NCBI RefSeq assembly: GCF_015775515.1
Contig: NZ_CP065383.1
Span: 124,001-188,000, forward strand
Length of the DNA: 64,000 nt
Direction: 5' to 3'
Source of the DNA: Atribacter laminatus
Lineage (GTDB): Bacteria; Atribacterota; Atribacteria; Atribacterales; Atribacteraceae
The first letter of the stretch is position 1. Every line of letters starts with the position of its first letter. The notes under the pieces are model-generated. The model had not been told where the DNA came from and did not search any database. It was given only the letters and a program-made list of their open reading frames with translations. This document shows, in pieces, positions 54,455 to 61,957 of this stretch. A program made the translations under genes and the position numbers.

Positions 54455-55192
54455 TTAATAGGCATATACCCTTCCATAAGGACGAGTAGTGGTAGGGAAA
54501 ACCTTGACAAAATCATCCCTTTTAAAGTCTGGTATTTCCAGGTCAAGGTCTTGAGAAAACTCGTTCAGGTAGGAAGTGATTTCGTCATAATCTCTGGGAG
54601 TCGGCTGCTCAATGCCGATTCCCAGACCAGCTTGTTCCGGCCGGAATCGACCGCGAATAAATAATTTCCCTCCGTGCATTCCCGAAGCGATGAACTTCCC
54701 CACCGGAGAACAACTTGAATCATAACCAAGACCTAATACAACAATTAAACCCCCTGCCATATACTCCCCAAGAAAATCTTGGCTTGACCCACCGATAATG
54801 ATAACTGGATAGTCGTTTAGATATGATTTCATGTGAATACCCACTCGATATCCAACATCGCCTTTAACCCATATCTTCCCACCCCTCATAGCATATCCGG
54901 CAATGTCTCGAATGTCGCCTTCAACGATAATCTTCCCCGAGTTCATGGTATTGCCAACCCCATCTTGAGCATTCCCATGGACAAGTATGGTCGCACCGTC
55001 CATAAACATTCCCAAGTCATCTCCTGGAACACCATTGATCTCGATTATTCCCTCACCAGATAAGGATCGGCCGATATAACGTTGACCGTTCACTCCTTGG
55101 AGAGAGAAATTACGAAATCCGTCTTTCCACATGGCTTCGATTTCCTGGTTAATTTCTCGGTAATGACGTCCTTGACAAGGGATAGTAGTCAT
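54455..55192 (-). CDS. Glutamate synthase GXGXG-domain protein (GltB3-like)
   Basis: 245 residues of a right-handed beta helix built from GxGxG turns: GDGATI..., then NAQDGVGNTMNSGKIIVEGD, IAGYAMRGGKIWVKGDVG, YMAGGLIVVLG. In whole GltB this is the C-terminal structural domain that links the glutaminase and FMN parts; in archaea and some bacteria it is a separate subunit. Last gene of the five-gene glutamate synthase operon; four-base overlap with the FAD oxidoreductase. Confidence 0.9.
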   Translation of the reverse strand: MTTIPCQGRHYREINQEIEAMWKDGFRNFSLQGVNGQRYIGRSLSGEGIIEINGVPGDDLGMFMDGATILVHGNAQDGVGNTMNSGKIIVEGDIRDIAGYAMRGGKIWVKGDVGYRVGIHMKSYLNDYPVIIIGGSSQDFLGEYMAGGLIVVLGLGYDSSCSPVGKFIASGMHGGKLFIRGRFRPEQAGLGIGIEQPTPRDYDEITSYLNEFSQDLDLEIPDFKRDDFVKVFPTTTRPYGRVYAY

Positions 55193-56463
55193 ACTTCAAT
55201 ACCGGCTCCTTTCACTAAATGTTTACGATACCGAGTCGGAAGGTTAATCAATCCGAAATTAGGTTCCAGTAACTTGTCAAAAAAAGCCTGAACCGGTAGT
55301 TTTTGTCGCATAAGGTTGATATAAATTCCTGATTTTTCAATATCCCCAATAAAAATCACCCCAACGATACAGTCATCTTTGATCACTAATTTCTTATAAT
55401 TTTCCCGATCCTTCTTGATTATAATTTCACAGTTATCATCGGTAGGATTCACAATCCCAGCTGATACCAGCGCTTTTTCGCCAACTTCAACCGCATTCAT
55501 AGGTAAGCTCCCTAGATAAGAAACCACCCGTCCAGACATATTCCAACCGGCAATGCGTCCTTGATTGACCGCCTCAGGCCAAATTGCTACCACATTCCTT
55601 TCGCCGGTCAATAAATGACAAGTTTCTGCAACATCACCGGCTGCATAAATTCCCGGACAGGAAGATTGTTGATATTCATCAACCAGAATCCCTCGATTAA
55701 TTTTAATGTTGGAAGAACGAAGCCAATCGACATTGGGACGGACTCCTATAGCCATAACTGCTATATCGGCTGGGATTCGACGTCCACTTTTTAAAAGAAC
55801 ATCACTCAACTTCCCTTTTTCATTTTCAAAGGATACAATTGTGTCTTCTTTGATAATATGCACTCCGGAACGAAGTAGTGATTTTTCTAAATAATAGGAT
55901 CCTTCTTCATCTAACATATTTTGCAGAAGGCGAGGTGCCAATTCGATTAAGGTAAGGTTTTTATTCATGCTCATCATGGCTTCACAGGTTTTAAGTCCGA
56001 TAAATCCTCCTCCAAGAATAACGATATTCTTGGAGGAATTTTTTTTCATAAAGGCATCGATATTCGCCATGTCCTTTCGTCGAGTAAAGGTAAAAATTCC
56101 TGGGATTTCATGACCCGAAATCTCTGGAAGGATTGGAACGCCTCCAGAAGCAATCAGCGCTTTATTGAAAGTAATTTCGGTTTCATCGGAAAGAAAAGCA
56201 AGTTTTCTATTTACATCCAATTGCTTCACTTTCGTTTCGTATCTGACTTGCACTTGACTTGATTCTTCAAGTGTTCCGTGATAAGCAATGGAGTTAATGG
56301 TTTTACCCAAACCATAGGTAATTAAAGGTCTTGAATAAACAGTCTTTTCATCAGAAATCGCCTGGATGCAACAAAAGGAATCATTCTCAACAATACTTTT
56401 GATACACCACCAAGAAGCAACCGAATAACCGACGATAAAAAAATCAGTTTCAATTTTCTTCAT
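55189..56463 (-). CDS. FAD/NAD(P)-binding oxidoreductase of the glutamate synthase cluster
   Basis: 424 residues from ATG 56463. FAD motif FFIVGYSVASWWCIKSI (GxSxAG form), NAD(P) motif NIVILGGGFIGLKTCEAMM and the late DEYQQSSCPGIYAAGDVAE are those of two-dinucleotide-domain flavoproteins (nitrite reductase/rubredoxin reductase type). In GltBD the small subunit does this job, but here it lacks the N-terminal 4Fe-4S part, which is encoded in the upstream ferredoxin gene. Likely brings NAD(P)H electrons to the FMN subunit. Overlaps the ferredoxin gene by 14 bases. Confidence 0.88.
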   Translation of the reverse strand: MKKIETDFFIVGYSVASWWCIKSIVENDSFCCIQAISDEKTVYSRPLITYGLGKTINSIAYHGTLEESSQVQVRYETKVKQLDVNRKLAFLSDETEITFNKALIASGGVPILPEISGHEIPGIFTFTRRKDMANIDAFMKKNSSKNIVILGGGFIGLKTCEAMMSMNKNLTLIELAPRLLQNMLDEEGSYYLEKSLLRSGVHIIKEDTIVSFENEKGKLSDVLLKSGRRIPADIAVMAIGVRPNVDWLRSSNIKINRGILVDEYQQSSCPGIYAAGDVAETCHLLTGERNVVAIWPEAVNQGRIAGWNMSGRVVSYLGSLPMNAVEVGEKALVSAGIVNPTDDNCEIIIKKDRENYKKLVIKDDCIVGVIFIGDIEKSGIYINLMRQKLPVQAFFDKLLEPNFGLINLPTRYRKHLVKGAGIEV

Positions 56464-56893
56464 AGCTGAGAGCCTCATTTGGACAGTTGGCGACACAAGC
56501 CGGTTCACCATCGTTTCCGCATAAATCACATTTACTGGCAATTTTGCGCTCTTTCTTTTCTCTTTGGATGACGCCAAAGGGACAACTCATAATACACATC
56601 CAGCATCCAACACACTTTTCCTCATCACAAATCACCGCCCCGCTTTTTTCATCCCGATGCATGGCACCAGTCATGCAATTCTCGATACAGGTTGCATCCT
56701 CACAATGACGACATTGCAGAGCAAAAGAAAGATATCCTTCTTCTTCCACATGAACTCGGGAAATCGGTCGAGGATATTCTTCCCGGAAAGCTTTAATAAT
56801 TTTTCCAGAACTAGAATGCTTTACCAAGCATTGAATTTCACAAAGACGACATCCAATACAGTATTCCTCATGGATAACGATTTTTTTCATCAT
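56450..56893 (-). CDS. Four-cluster ferredoxin-type electron carrier
   Basis: 147 residues. Four Cys clusters: CIGCRLCEIQC, CRHCEDATCIENC, CVGCWMCIMSC and CDLCGNDGEPACVANCP, the HycB/DmsB/PsrB-like pattern. It probably passes electrons between the FAD oxidoreductase and the FMN subunit. Start ATG 56893 shares one base with the stop of the FMN-subunit gene (TAATG); another ATG follows at 56890. Confidence 0.88.
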   Translation of the reverse strand: MMKKIVIHEEYCIGCRLCEIQCLVKHSSSGKIIKAFREEYPRPISRVHVEEEGYLSFALQCRHCEDATCIENCMTGAMHRDEKSGAVICDEEKCVGCWMCIMSCPFGVIQREKKERKIASKCDLCGNDGEPACVANCPNEALSYEEN

Positions 56894-58413
56894 TACCACC
56901 CCTCTCCAGCCGGTTTCACTCCCAATATTTGCGACTCCTCCCTAGTGAGCCCTACCGTCCTGAGATGTTCTTTATTGCCTCGCAAACTTTGAATCGAATT
57001 AACTCCCATTCCCCCAAGCATTTCTTTGATTTCAAACGCCCAAGCTCTCATAAGATTCACTAGACGACGTTTTCCAATCGAAGGATTCAACCGCTTGGTG
57101 AGATACGGGTCTTGAGTGGCGATTCCCCAATTGCATTTTCCGGTATAACATTTTTGACAGAGATGACAACCCAACGCGACCAAAGTTGCCGTTCCGATAT
57201 AAACGGCGTCAGCACCCAAAGCAATGGCTTTGATGACATCAGCACTGGAACGAATCCCTCCGGCTATAACCAATGAAGCTCGATGACGAATGCCTTCCTG
57301 ACGCAAACGCTCATCAACCTGAGCTAAAGCTAATTCGATGGGAATCCCAACGTTGTCACGAATGACTTGGGGAGCTGCTCCGGTTCCTCCCCGAATGCCA
57401 TCGATAGCGACGATATCAGCCCCGGCTCGAATGGCTCCCGAAGCGATTGCGGCGATATTATGAACTGCTGCAATTTTCACCGAGACCGGCTTTTCATAGG
57501 AAATCGATTCCTTTATAGCAAATATCAAACGCTGTAAATCTTCTATCGAATAAATATCATGATGGGGTGCCGGGGAAATGGCATCGGAACCCTCGGGGAT
57601 TTTACGAGTTTGGGAAATTTCCAATGAGACCTTCTCACCAGGGAGATGTCCACCAATACCCGGTTTCGCTCCCTGACCAATCTTAATTTCAACTGCTCCC
57701 GCTACCTGGAGATAATCCCGATGGACACCAAAGCGACCGGAAGCCACTTGGACAATAATGTTTTTTCCATAGGGATAAAAATCGGGGTGCAACCCTCCCT
57801 CACCGCTATTACAGTGGGTTCCAACTTCGCGGGCGGCTTCAACAATAGAGTGAAAGGCATTATAACTTATCGAACCATAAGACATAGCTGAAAACAATAT
57901 GGGAAGATTCAATTCCAGTTGGGGCGCCAGCTGAGTTTTAATCACCGGAAAATCTTGATTCCAATCGATATCCAGCATCTCTTCCTTTGCTCCTAAAAAA
58001 GTTTTTAATTCAATAGGCTCCCGGAGGGGATCGATTGATGGATTAGTTATCTGACTGGCATTTAACAAGAGATGATCCCAATAGATACGATAAGGTTGAT
58101 CACATCCCATGCCCGAGAGCAGTACGCCCCCGGTTTCCGATTGTTTATAGAGGTTGCGGATATGTTGAACGCTCCAATTGGCATTCGGATGAAAACCAAC
58201 TTCTCTTTTTTTAACTTCCAAGGCGTTGGTCGGGCACAGAGTAACGCATCGCTGACAGCCAACACAGCGTTCGTCTTGGCAAGAAACTGTATCGTCATCC
58301 TGATCGTAATGATGGACATCATTGGCACATTGACGAACACAGACCTGGCACGCTATGCAACGGTCGGTATCACGAATAACTTTAAACTCTGGAAACAAAA
58401 CACTTTTTGCCAT
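56893..58413 (-). CDS. Glutamate synthase FMN-domain subunit (GltB2-like) with ferredoxin domain
   Basis: 506 residues from ATG 58413 (start uncertain; a GTG at 58428 and an ATG at 58452 are in frame). Two N-terminal 4Fe-4S motifs (CIACQVCVRQC, CVGCQRCVTLC), then the FMN barrel: AMSYGSISYNAFHSIVEAA, HCNSGEGGLHPDFYPYG, GQGAKPGIGGHLPGEKVS, AIDGIRGGTGAAPQVIRDN, and the 3Fe-4S cysteines CHLCQKCYTGKCNWGIA. Converts 2-oxoglutarate and ammonia to glutamate. Overlaps the glutaminase gene by about 32 bases. Confidence 0.92.
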   Translation of the reverse strand: MAKSVLFPEFKVIRDTDRCIACQVCVRQCANDVHHYDQDDDTVSCQDERCVGCQRCVTLCPTNALEVKKREVGFHPNANWSVQHIRNLYKQSETGGVLLSGMGCDQPYRIYWDHLLLNASQITNPSIDPLREPIELKTFLGAKEEMLDIDWNQDFPVIKTQLAPQLELNLPILFSAMSYGSISYNAFHSIVEAAREVGTHCNSGEGGLHPDFYPYGKNIIVQVASGRFGVHRDYLQVAGAVEIKIGQGAKPGIGGHLPGEKVSLEISQTRKIPEGSDAISPAPHHDIYSIEDLQRLIFAIKESISYEKPVSVKIAAVHNIAAIASGAIRAGADIVAIDGIRGGTGAAPQVIRDNVGIPIELALAQVDERLRQEGIRHRASLVIAGGIRSSADVIKAIALGADAVYIGTATLVALGCHLCQKCYTGKCNWGIATQDPYLTKRLNPSIGKRRLVNLMRAWAFEIKEMLGGMGVNSIQSLRGNKEHLRTVGLTREESQILGVKPAGEGW

Positions 58414-59488
58414 AGCTAATTTTTTCACCCACCTGTCCAGAGACGACTTCACCTGCTTGGAGAGGTCTTATTTCATCCAAATCAGGAGCAATTTCACGAA
58501 TAGCCGATTCTTCGCTGGATAAATAAAAAGTTGAATCTTTCCACGCAGCGATCATGGGACGAAGTTTGATCCGATCCACTAATCCAAACATTCCCTTATC
58601 AAAACCAACAATGATACTGAAAGGACCATTTAATAGTGCACCGCCGTAAATCATCCGCAGTGAACGATAAAAAGTTTTTTCCGGTTCCGACATTAAATCG
58701 ATCTCATGCCAGAAAGGACTGGCTAAAACCGAGCCGAGAAAGGGAATGCGTATTTGGTGTTTTCGTCCGAGCAAGTCAACTAAATAGGTAATAACCTCGG
58801 TATCGGTCTGCAAATTGCAGTGATAATCAAAATTTTGTAAATAACGTCGGTTGATCCCATAAGAAGAAATTTCACCATTATGAACAACCGACCAGGAAAG
58901 CAAACCGAAAGGATGAGCACCCCCCCACCATCCGACGCTGTTGGTGGGAAATCGACCATGAGATATCCAGCAATAAGCTTGATATTCTTCCAGCCGAAAA
59001 AAACGGCCGATGTCTTCTGGATAACCAACTCCTTTAAAAATTCCCATATTTTTTCCGCTGGAAATAACATAAGCTCCCGAAATCGAAGAATTTATTTTCA
59101 TTACTAGCTTAACCACTTCATCATCTTCAGAGAAAATTTTTCCCTTCGGAAAGAGAAAGTACCTTTTAAAATAAGGATAGTTTTGGACTTCTTTGATTTC
59201 CCGAAAGGGAATCACTTCAGAGTGTTCGACTTCACATAAATTTTGGATGATATCTTCGGTCGTTATAACCGCTTGCCGATCATCATAAAGAATATGGAAA
59301 GCATAAAGATCGGGGAAATCCGGATAGATACCGTATCCCGCAAAACCACCTCCCAAACCGTTGGAACGATCATGCATAACAGCTATTGAACGGATGATTC
59401 CTTCACCCGAAATCCTAAATCCATCTTGGTTTAGAATGCCAACTACGGCACATCCAGATGGTATGCGGTAAAGTTGGTCCTCTCTCAT
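58382..59488 (-). CDS. Glutamate synthase glutaminase domain (class II amidotransferase, GltB1-like)
   Basis: 368 residues. The catalytic Cys of an Ntn amidotransferase should become N-terminal; here Cys13 in RIPSGCAVVGILNQDG is preceded by 12 residues, a propeptide to be removed. Further motifs: GLGGGFAGYGI, HGRFPTNSVGWWGGAHPFGL, SVVHNGEISSYGINRRYL, DTEVITYLVDLL (as in GltB). It hydrolyses glutamine and supplies ammonia to the FMN subunit. First gene of the operon. Confidence 0.9.
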   Translation of the reverse strand: MREDQLYRIPSGCAVVGILNQDGFRISGEGIIRSIAVMHDRSNGLGGGFAGYGIYPDFPDLYAFHILYDDRQAVITTEDIIQNLCEVEHSEVIPFREIKEVQNYPYFKRYFLFPKGKIFSEDDEVVKLVMKINSSISGAYVISSGKNMGIFKGVGYPEDIGRFFRLEEYQAYCWISHGRFPTNSVGWWGGAHPFGLLSWSVVHNGEISSYGINRRYLQNFDYHCNLQTDTEVITYLVDLLGRKHQIRIPFLGSVLASPFWHEIDLMSEPEKTFYRSLRMIYGGALLNGPFSIIVGFDKGMFGLVDRIKLRPMIAAWKDSTFYLSSEESAIREIAPDLDEIRPLQAGEVVSGQVGEKISYGKKCFVSRV

Positions 59489-61055: not shown

Positions 61056-61078
61056 TTTACATTAACCTCCTTAGTCGA

Positions 61079-61123
61079 TAAAAAAAAGGGCGCTTTGCTC
61101 CAACAACGGAGCAAAACGCCCTT
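61079..61123 (-). terminator. Intrinsic terminator in the glnA leader (candidate attenuator)
   Basis: On the minus strand AAGGGCGTTTTGCTCC pairs with GGAGCAAAGCGCCCTT (16 pairs, one mismatch) around a six-base loop GTTGTT (61102-61107) and is followed by a T-run (61080-61085). It ends about 25 bases before the glnA start, between promoter and ribosome site. Confidence 0.8.
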
Positions 61124-61134
61124 GTCTCAATCTT

Positions 61135-61201
61135 ATTGTCCAACTCTGGACAATTTTCCTTTAGAAATCAAAAACAACTAAAACTTTCTCACTAATGAGA
61201 A
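61135..61201 (-). promoter_or_regulatory. Two leader hairpins upstream of the glnA attenuator
   Basis: Hairpin 1 at 61186-61201: TTCTC-ATTAGT-GAGAA in the transcript. Hairpin 2 at 61135-61154: ATTGTCC-AGAGTT-GGACAAT. Both can be drawn with hexaloops. The loop AGAGTT has A1 and G4, as required by ANTAR antitermination proteins; ATTAGT has A1 but G at position 5, so it fits only partly. Linker is about 31 bases. Confidence 0.5.
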
Positions 61202-61225
61202 CATCTTTATGGAACTATTTGGTAA

Positions 61226-61254
61226 ATTCTAATCAAAGTGGATGTTTCTGTCAA
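61226..61254 (-). promoter_or_regulatory. Promoter of glnA
   Basis: Minus strand TTGACA (61249-61254), 17-base spacer, TAGAAT (61226-61231). Predicted start near 61219 gives a leader of about 165 bases. Confidence 0.8.
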
Positions 61255-61282: not shown

Positions 61283-61957
61283 TTAATAGCGAGTAAGGCT
61301 TAAATAAAAACGAGTCAGTAAGATTCCGATATAGGCCAAAAGAAAGGCAATAAATAGAATATTAATAAAAATTCCGACAATTGGAATCAAGCGAATCAAC
61401 CAAGTGAGTAAATACCCAATAATTAACAACGACAATGAAAGGATGAAAAAAGCAAACACTTCGGCCAGATTTTCGTAAACCATGCGGAAACTGGTTTTTA
61501 TAGCACTAAAAGGGTCGTCACCGCTGATAACTATTGCCGGTAAACAAAAAATTAATAAAAAGGCCAGAAAAAATCCAGCGAATACAAACCAAATCGAAAA
61601 GAATCCAATTAATAATCCCAAACCCAGACAAGCCAAAAGAACATCCGAATATCGGCTCTGGATGATGCGGTAAACCCGGCGAAAATCGACCCGGTTACGA
61701 TATTGATAATCCCATACCAGTGCAATAAGAAAACACGTACCGAGAAAAACGCTAAACATACCAACAATTCCCAAACCAGCAAGAGTAAAGGATTGAAAGT
61801 ATGACGATATCCACACCAATCGTCTTCCTGGAGATAGAAATAAAATAAGAGAAAATATCAATGCCGGTCCAATGGTTGGCAGAACAAACACCGGGCGGCT
61901 GATTAAGAGACGAAAACTTCCTTTGGCTTCATTCCAGAACTCTCGGCTATTAATCAT
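61283..61957 (-). CDS. Multi-pass membrane protein of unknown function
   Basis: 224 residues, five to six hydrophobic segments. FWNEAKGSFRLLISRPVFVL at the N-terminus and a middle IVISGDDPFSAIKTSFRMVY followed by helices are the pattern of DUF4013/DUF975-type proteins. AGGAGAAGAAC precedes the ATG. Upstream of glnA on the same strand but glnA has its own promoter. No role can be assigned. Confidence 0.75.
   Translation of the reverse strand: MINSREFWNEAKGSFRLLISRPVFVLPTIGPALIFSLILFLSPGRRLVWISSYFQSFTLAGLGIVGMFSVFLGTCFLIALVWDYQYRNRVDFRRVYRIIQSRYSDVLLACLGLGLLIGFFSIWFVFAGFFLAFLLIFCLPAIVISGDDPFSAIKTSFRMVYENLAEVFAFFILSLSLLIIGYLLTWLIRLIPIVGIFINILFIAFLLAYIGILLTRFYLSLTRY

Follow-up and report, generated by a model that had tools for sequence, protein, structure and literature searches.

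The window analysed here, a stretch of 64,000 nucleotides, belongs to a 3.1-Mb genome that forms a single contig and is closest, among named relatives, to 'Candidatus Atribacteria' assemblies, whose GlnA proteins are 95–99% identical. The minus strand of the window carries glnA1, which encodes a type I glutamine synthetase, together with an upstream leader that contains hairpins and an intrinsic terminator (Table 1). Downstream lie the genes of a split glutamate synthase (GOGAT) and an adjoining oxidoreductase. Neither a promoter nor a terminator was found on the minus strand in the gap between glnA and the GOGAT genes, and glnA and these genes are probably co-transcribed. A second glutamine synthetase (48% identical) is located closely behind another reading frame in most genomes, and no leader of the glnA1 kind was seen upstream of it by eye.

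Table 1. Features of the glnA1 locus, with positions in the window, and of the GAF-ANTAR gene, with its position in the genome.
Feature	Position	Strand	Basis
Sigma-70-type promoter of glnA, TTGACA-N17-TAGAAT	61226..61254	(-)	Consensus match; TTGACA kept in the glnA1 leaders of relatives
Hairpin 1, TTCTC ATTAGT GAGAA	61186..61201	(-)	Fold; comparison with relatives
P1, first hexaloop hairpin, ATTGTCC-AGAGTT-GGACAAT, A1/G4	61135..61154	(-)	Hexaloop listing, conservation, fold
P1-P2 linker, 5 nt (6 nt in the computed fold)	61130..61134	(-)	Indices and fold
P2, second hexaloop hairpin, TGAGAC-AAGGGC-GTTTTG, A1/G4	61112..61129	(-)	Hexaloop listing, shuffles, conservation, fold
Intrinsic terminator, 17 bp, 4-nt loop, T-run to ~61080	61086..61123	(-)	Sequence scan and fold
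Shine-Dalgarno sequence of glnA, AAGGAGG	61066..61072	(-)	Sequence
glnA1, type I glutamine synthetase, 444 aa	59721..61055	(-)	TIGR00653 over cut-off; PF00120/PF03951
Glutamate synthase, glutaminase-like domain protein	58382..59488	(-)	Domain search; strand scan of the gap to glnA
Glutamate synthase, 4Fe-4S and FMN synthase domain protein (split GOGAT)	56893..58452	(-)	PF01645
NAD(P)H-dependent oxidoreductase adjoining the GOGAT genes	55189..56577	(-)	PF07992
GAF-ANTAR gene	about G000:C1:2181246-2181932		ANTAR domain search

The promoter matches 11 of 12 consensus positions, bearing out the first-pass annotation, and it is the sole promoter-like site within 1.3 kb; a scan of this distance found none downstream of the terminator and before glnA. 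TTGACA with a good -10 element is present in all complete glnA1 leaders of relatives, that of genome G012 excepted. The two hairpins that the annotation had placed in the leader, hairpin 1 and the hairpin termed P1 here, both fold as it described, and P1 has the A1/G4 hexaloop ascribed to it (A as the first and G as the fourth loop base). Hairpin 1 had been judged to fit this rule only in part, and it indeed fails the rule because its loop has the A at position 1 but an A at position 4. Elsewhere it is seen in just one strain, a nearly identical one with ATTGTT as the loop, and it is probably not an essential part of the leader. The terminator with its T-run is present, but its stem comprises 17 bp instead of 16 bp, and its end is ~14 nt, not 25, from the ribosome site and 30 nt from the ATG.

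A listing of hexaloop hairpins beside the terminator, restricted to loops with a purine first and a G fourth (R1/G4), yields two, P1 and P2. It is these two that form the dual motif, and not hairpin 1 with P1 as the annotation had supposed; P2, lying over the terminator, had been overlooked. The loop (61123-61118) and 3' stem (61117-61112) of P2 are the first bases of the terminator 5' arm, and P2 and the terminator are mutually exclusive because they share this arm. RNA ending at 61112 is computed to fold into P1 and P2 at -11 kcal/mol, and RNA ending at 61082 into P1 and the terminator at -39.7 kcal/mol. The folding energy of the whole leader has a z of -7.9 relative to dinucleotide shuffles. 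The P1 stem has 7 bp; for P2 the pairing rule gives 6 bp and the computed fold 5 bp. By itself P2 of the window is weak (-1.8 kcal/mol, with G-U in three of its six pairs), and a hairpin of its quality arises at its place in 22% of shuffles, a frequency at which chance is possible; for these reasons the case for P2 depends on relatives. Of the dinucleotide shuffles made from the window leader, 0.25% have the dual motif over a terminator when A1 is required, and 0.55% when A or G is allowed. For orthologous modules that have the dual motif, the same test gives at most 1.25%, mostly 0-0.2%.

This glnA is present in 14 genomes of the phylum sample. In all but G012, wherever the contig reaches far enough, it is preceded by the promoter, an R1/G4 hexaloop hairpin, the terminator, and the start codon; upstream of glnA in G012, neither a promoter of this kind nor an R1/G4 hairpin over a terminator was found. 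Loss of the terminator in close relatives, set beforehand as evidence against regulation, did not occur where it was checked. Outside the phylum, the leaders of glnA orthologues (L005-L049) have no comparable terminator by eye. P2 in relatives is typically GAAC-RAAGGC-GTTC, and two successive module-terminator units occur in G006, G007, G009, G011, and G022. The hairpin over the terminator has a T at loop position 1 in the family of G013, G015, and G020, and no R1/G4 hairpin over the terminator was found in G017 and G023 or in the second modules of G007 and G009. In the glnA leaders of G017 and G023 (L063, L065), two R1/G4 hexaloops lie upstream of the terminator and a third hairpin, GCCT...AGGC, overlaps it, forming a three-hairpin variant.

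The search of relatives and the covariation analysis that the annotation had recommended show that the module occurs across Atribacterales and that both stems covary. In a structure-guided alignment of 18 modules, whose linkers were brought to one length by N padding ahead of the pair count, G4 is found in 18/18 loops of both P1 and P2. Loop position 1 is A in 15/18 P1 and 15/18 P2 loops and G in the remaining 3/18 of each, and 98.6% of stem cells are paired. The covariation score reaches 0.495, whereas shuffles score 0.199 and slid controls no more than 0.141.

The leaders of G011, G022, and G024 (L061, L062, L117) are almost identical though the assemblies are assigned to different families. 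They may reflect one lineage, recent transfer, or mis-binned contigs, and should therefore not be counted as independent. In the close relative G005 (L053/L163, G005:C35:44000-48500), P1, P2, and the terminator survive, while glnA and most GOGAT genes are deleted and a fused remnant is left. The G005 leader was considered as a sign of GOGAT control, an idea that was dropped because deletion has removed most of the GOGAT genes as well.

Further targets were sought in 25 genomes with a covariance model of P1 and P2 (model R1) built from glnA1 leaders alone. Its strongest matches outside glnA lie before glutamate dehydrogenase in G014, G012, G020, and G013, with E values of 6e-4 to 1.7e-3 per genome. 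Weaker ones precede the glutamate dehydrogenases of G011 (4.8e-3) and G015 (0.05) and a gltB-type glutamate synthase of G023 (0.2); a chance match inside a G005 coding sequence (0.0165) falls between the scores of G011 and G015. Each of these matched nitrogen-gene leaders, whose genes are identified by Pfam and NCBIfam, has an overlapping terminator and A1/G4 loops. In an enlarged model, R2, the leaders found with R1 score 1.6e-3 or better, or 5.5e-3 or better when the gltB-type leader of G017 is added, values that are partly circular because most of these leaders were added to R2. The best R2 match in 11 genomes outside the phylum is 0.043, and two coding-sequence matches within the phylum reach 0.008. 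Weak matches of either model in coding sequences (e.g., G005:C203, G032:C68, and G000:C1:501398) were dismissed as chance. In a background sample, the dual motif accompanies one of two strong terminators of the window and 3/38 in other loci, and all three of the latter are glnA or glutamate dehydrogenase leaders. The glutamate dehydrogenase loci of the window genome have neither a strong terminator nor a hexaloop pair upstream.

ANTAR-domain genes, which the annotation had suggested looking for, are represented exactly once in the window genome, by a GAF-ANTAR protein (ANTAR domain, E 2.7e-21) whose gene adjoins a metal-type ABC transporter. Most genomes of Atribacterales encode a single, highly similar copy. 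The protein can be aligned to EutV, Rv1626, and NasR, and it keeps Lys143, Tyr164, Met172, and Asn173 of EutV, of which Tyr164, Met172, and Asn173 are RNA contacts (numbering of PMC8934654); the EutV contacts Arg168, Arg175, and Arg177 are replaced. No ANTAR domain was detected in four leader-bearing assemblies, G011 (92% complete), G020, G022, and G024, and some genomes without a detected leader encode one, for which reason co-occurrence of leader and ANTAR lends weak support.

ANTAR proteins are described as stabilizing a pair of A1/G4 hexaloops, with the second lying over a terminator, and thereby allowing read-through (PMC3369931, PMC8934654); the motif rules and a link to nitrogen genes are also published (PMC3369931). 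The eut leaders of Enterococcus faecalis, targets of the REC-ANTAR protein EutV, likewise have two A1/G4 hexaloop hairpins with the second over an intrinsic terminator (PMC3369931, PMC8934654). Their linkers are 5-12 nt long, compared with 5-6 nt in the window. EutV is a phosphorylated response regulator, whereas the putative Atribacter regulator is a GAF-ANTAR protein and its target glnA. The leaders differ as well, in that relatives in Atribacterales allow G at loop position 1 and the P2 stem of the window has three G-U pairs. In predicted ANTAR nitrogen regulons, such as that of Desulfotomaculum acetoxidans, the motifs precede genes for glutamine and glutamate synthases, ammonium transporters, and P-II proteins (Ramesh et al. 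2012, PMC3369931). Compared with those, the present case concerns Atribacterota, includes glutamate dehydrogenase, and has tandem module-terminator units in some relatives. The nasF leader of Klebsiella is similar in that termination before nitrogen-assimilation genes is prevented by NasR, an ANTAR protein that also has a sensory domain (PMC3369931, PMC7496416). The sensor of NasR is a NIT domain for nitrate, whereas that of the Atribacter protein is a GAF domain.

The window leader has the features of an ANTAR target RNA: two stems of at least 3 bp, hexaloops with A1/G4 in both (AGAGTT and AAGGGC), a linker of 5-6 nt, a P2 that excludes the terminator, stems that covary, and an ANTAR protein encoded in the genome. 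It is very probably an ANTAR-type dual-hexaloop antiterminator of glnA, worked by the GAF-ANTAR protein according to nitrogen status. The annotation had raised ANTAR antitermination with a different pair of hairpins; the idea, though not the pairing, is upheld by conservation, covariation, the ANTAR gene, and the nitrogen genes recovered by blind search. Transcription would start at ~61219 and by default stop at the terminator, yielding little mRNA of glnA and probably of GOGAT. A nitrogen-status signal acting through the GAF domain would activate the protein, and the active ANTAR dimer would bind P1 and P2 on the nascent RNA. Holding P2 is predicted to block the terminator because P2 uses its 5' arm, so RNA polymerase would continue into glnA and presumably read through into the GOGAT genes.

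The same layout, a regulated terminator before glnA, would result if the terminator were under the direct control of a riboswitch, such as one sensing glutamine, with no protein involved. In cyanobacteria, glutamine riboswitches are known to precede glnA. Direct control by a ligand is nonetheless highly unlikely here, as no Rfam family matches the leader at gathering score and the conserved part, two tiny hairpins with G4 in the loop, is too small for a ligand pocket. The modules, moreover, are found singly, doubly, or with three hairpins, and the genome does encode an ANTAR protein. Rfam matches at E up to 10 are terminator-like chance matches only.

In one of two further rival explanations, a repressor or activator of glnA would use the P1 palindrome TTGTCC-N6-GGACAA as its DNA operator, with the terminator as a fixed attenuator or noisy brake. 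The stem TGTCC/GGACA is unchanged within the genus, as expected of an operator, but between genera both stem sides change (GC, CG, AU, UA, and G-U) while loop position 4 stays G. P1 therefore behaves as an RNA structure, since its stem sides change together around a fixed G4. The palindrome occurs just twice in the 3.1 Mb, P1 lies ~65 nt downstream of the expected start, and an operator is likewise highly unlikely. The least likely of the three is that the terminator serves the upstream gene (61283-61957) as its end and that glnA is unregulated and has its own undetected promoter. Intergenic terminators are common, and just 30 nt separate this one from the ATG; yet the upstream gene is separated from the terminator by a conserved promoter close to consensus, after which no promoter-like site follows. 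Hexaloops with a terminator also recur before other nitrogen genes that have different upstream genes.

Returning to ANTAR antitermination, the glnA leader is probably part of a nitrogen-assimilation regulon. There is about an even chance that nitrogen regulation in Atribacterales depends mainly on a single GAF-ANTAR protein, which would act through tandem hexaloop-terminator modules on glnA(-GOGAT), glutamate dehydrogenase, gltB, and amtB-glnK, and that in the genus of the window it substitutes for sigma-54/NtrC-type control. Sigma-54 was not found in this genus (G000, G002, G003, and G005), and P-II genes are present. Most of the other Atribacterales genera sampled do have sigma-54. In the literature searched, no paper that names Atribacter together with ANTAR was found, and nitrogen regulation in Atribacterota appears to be undescribed so far. 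ANTAR antitermination of nitrogen genes, already known, would be extended to another phylum and to glutamate dehydrogenase as a target. A regulator, its target site, and a regulon would become open to testing in a phylum that is abundant in the subsurface and has few isolates. Natural variants in the order, such as G1 loops, tandem units, and three-hairpin leaders, could help define the loop bases that the ANTAR domain needs.

The amtB leaders of G011 and G024 give very weak matches (0.2-1), and by eye they have A1/G4 hairpins over two terminators. Before amtB-glnK of the window genome (L193, G000:C1:931439-933038) lies a strong terminator, over whose 5' arm a 3-bp A1/G4 hairpin, AGC-AATGAA-GCT, may form. 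Two more A1/G4 hairpins are downstream, and the arrangement is similar in G002, G007, and G015. This amtB-glnK is a possible further target, for now only a lead. In G012 and G014 (L123, L122), glutamate dehydrogenases of different NCBIfam families have similar leaders and the same upstream gene, an apparent gene replacement under a retained regulatory leader.
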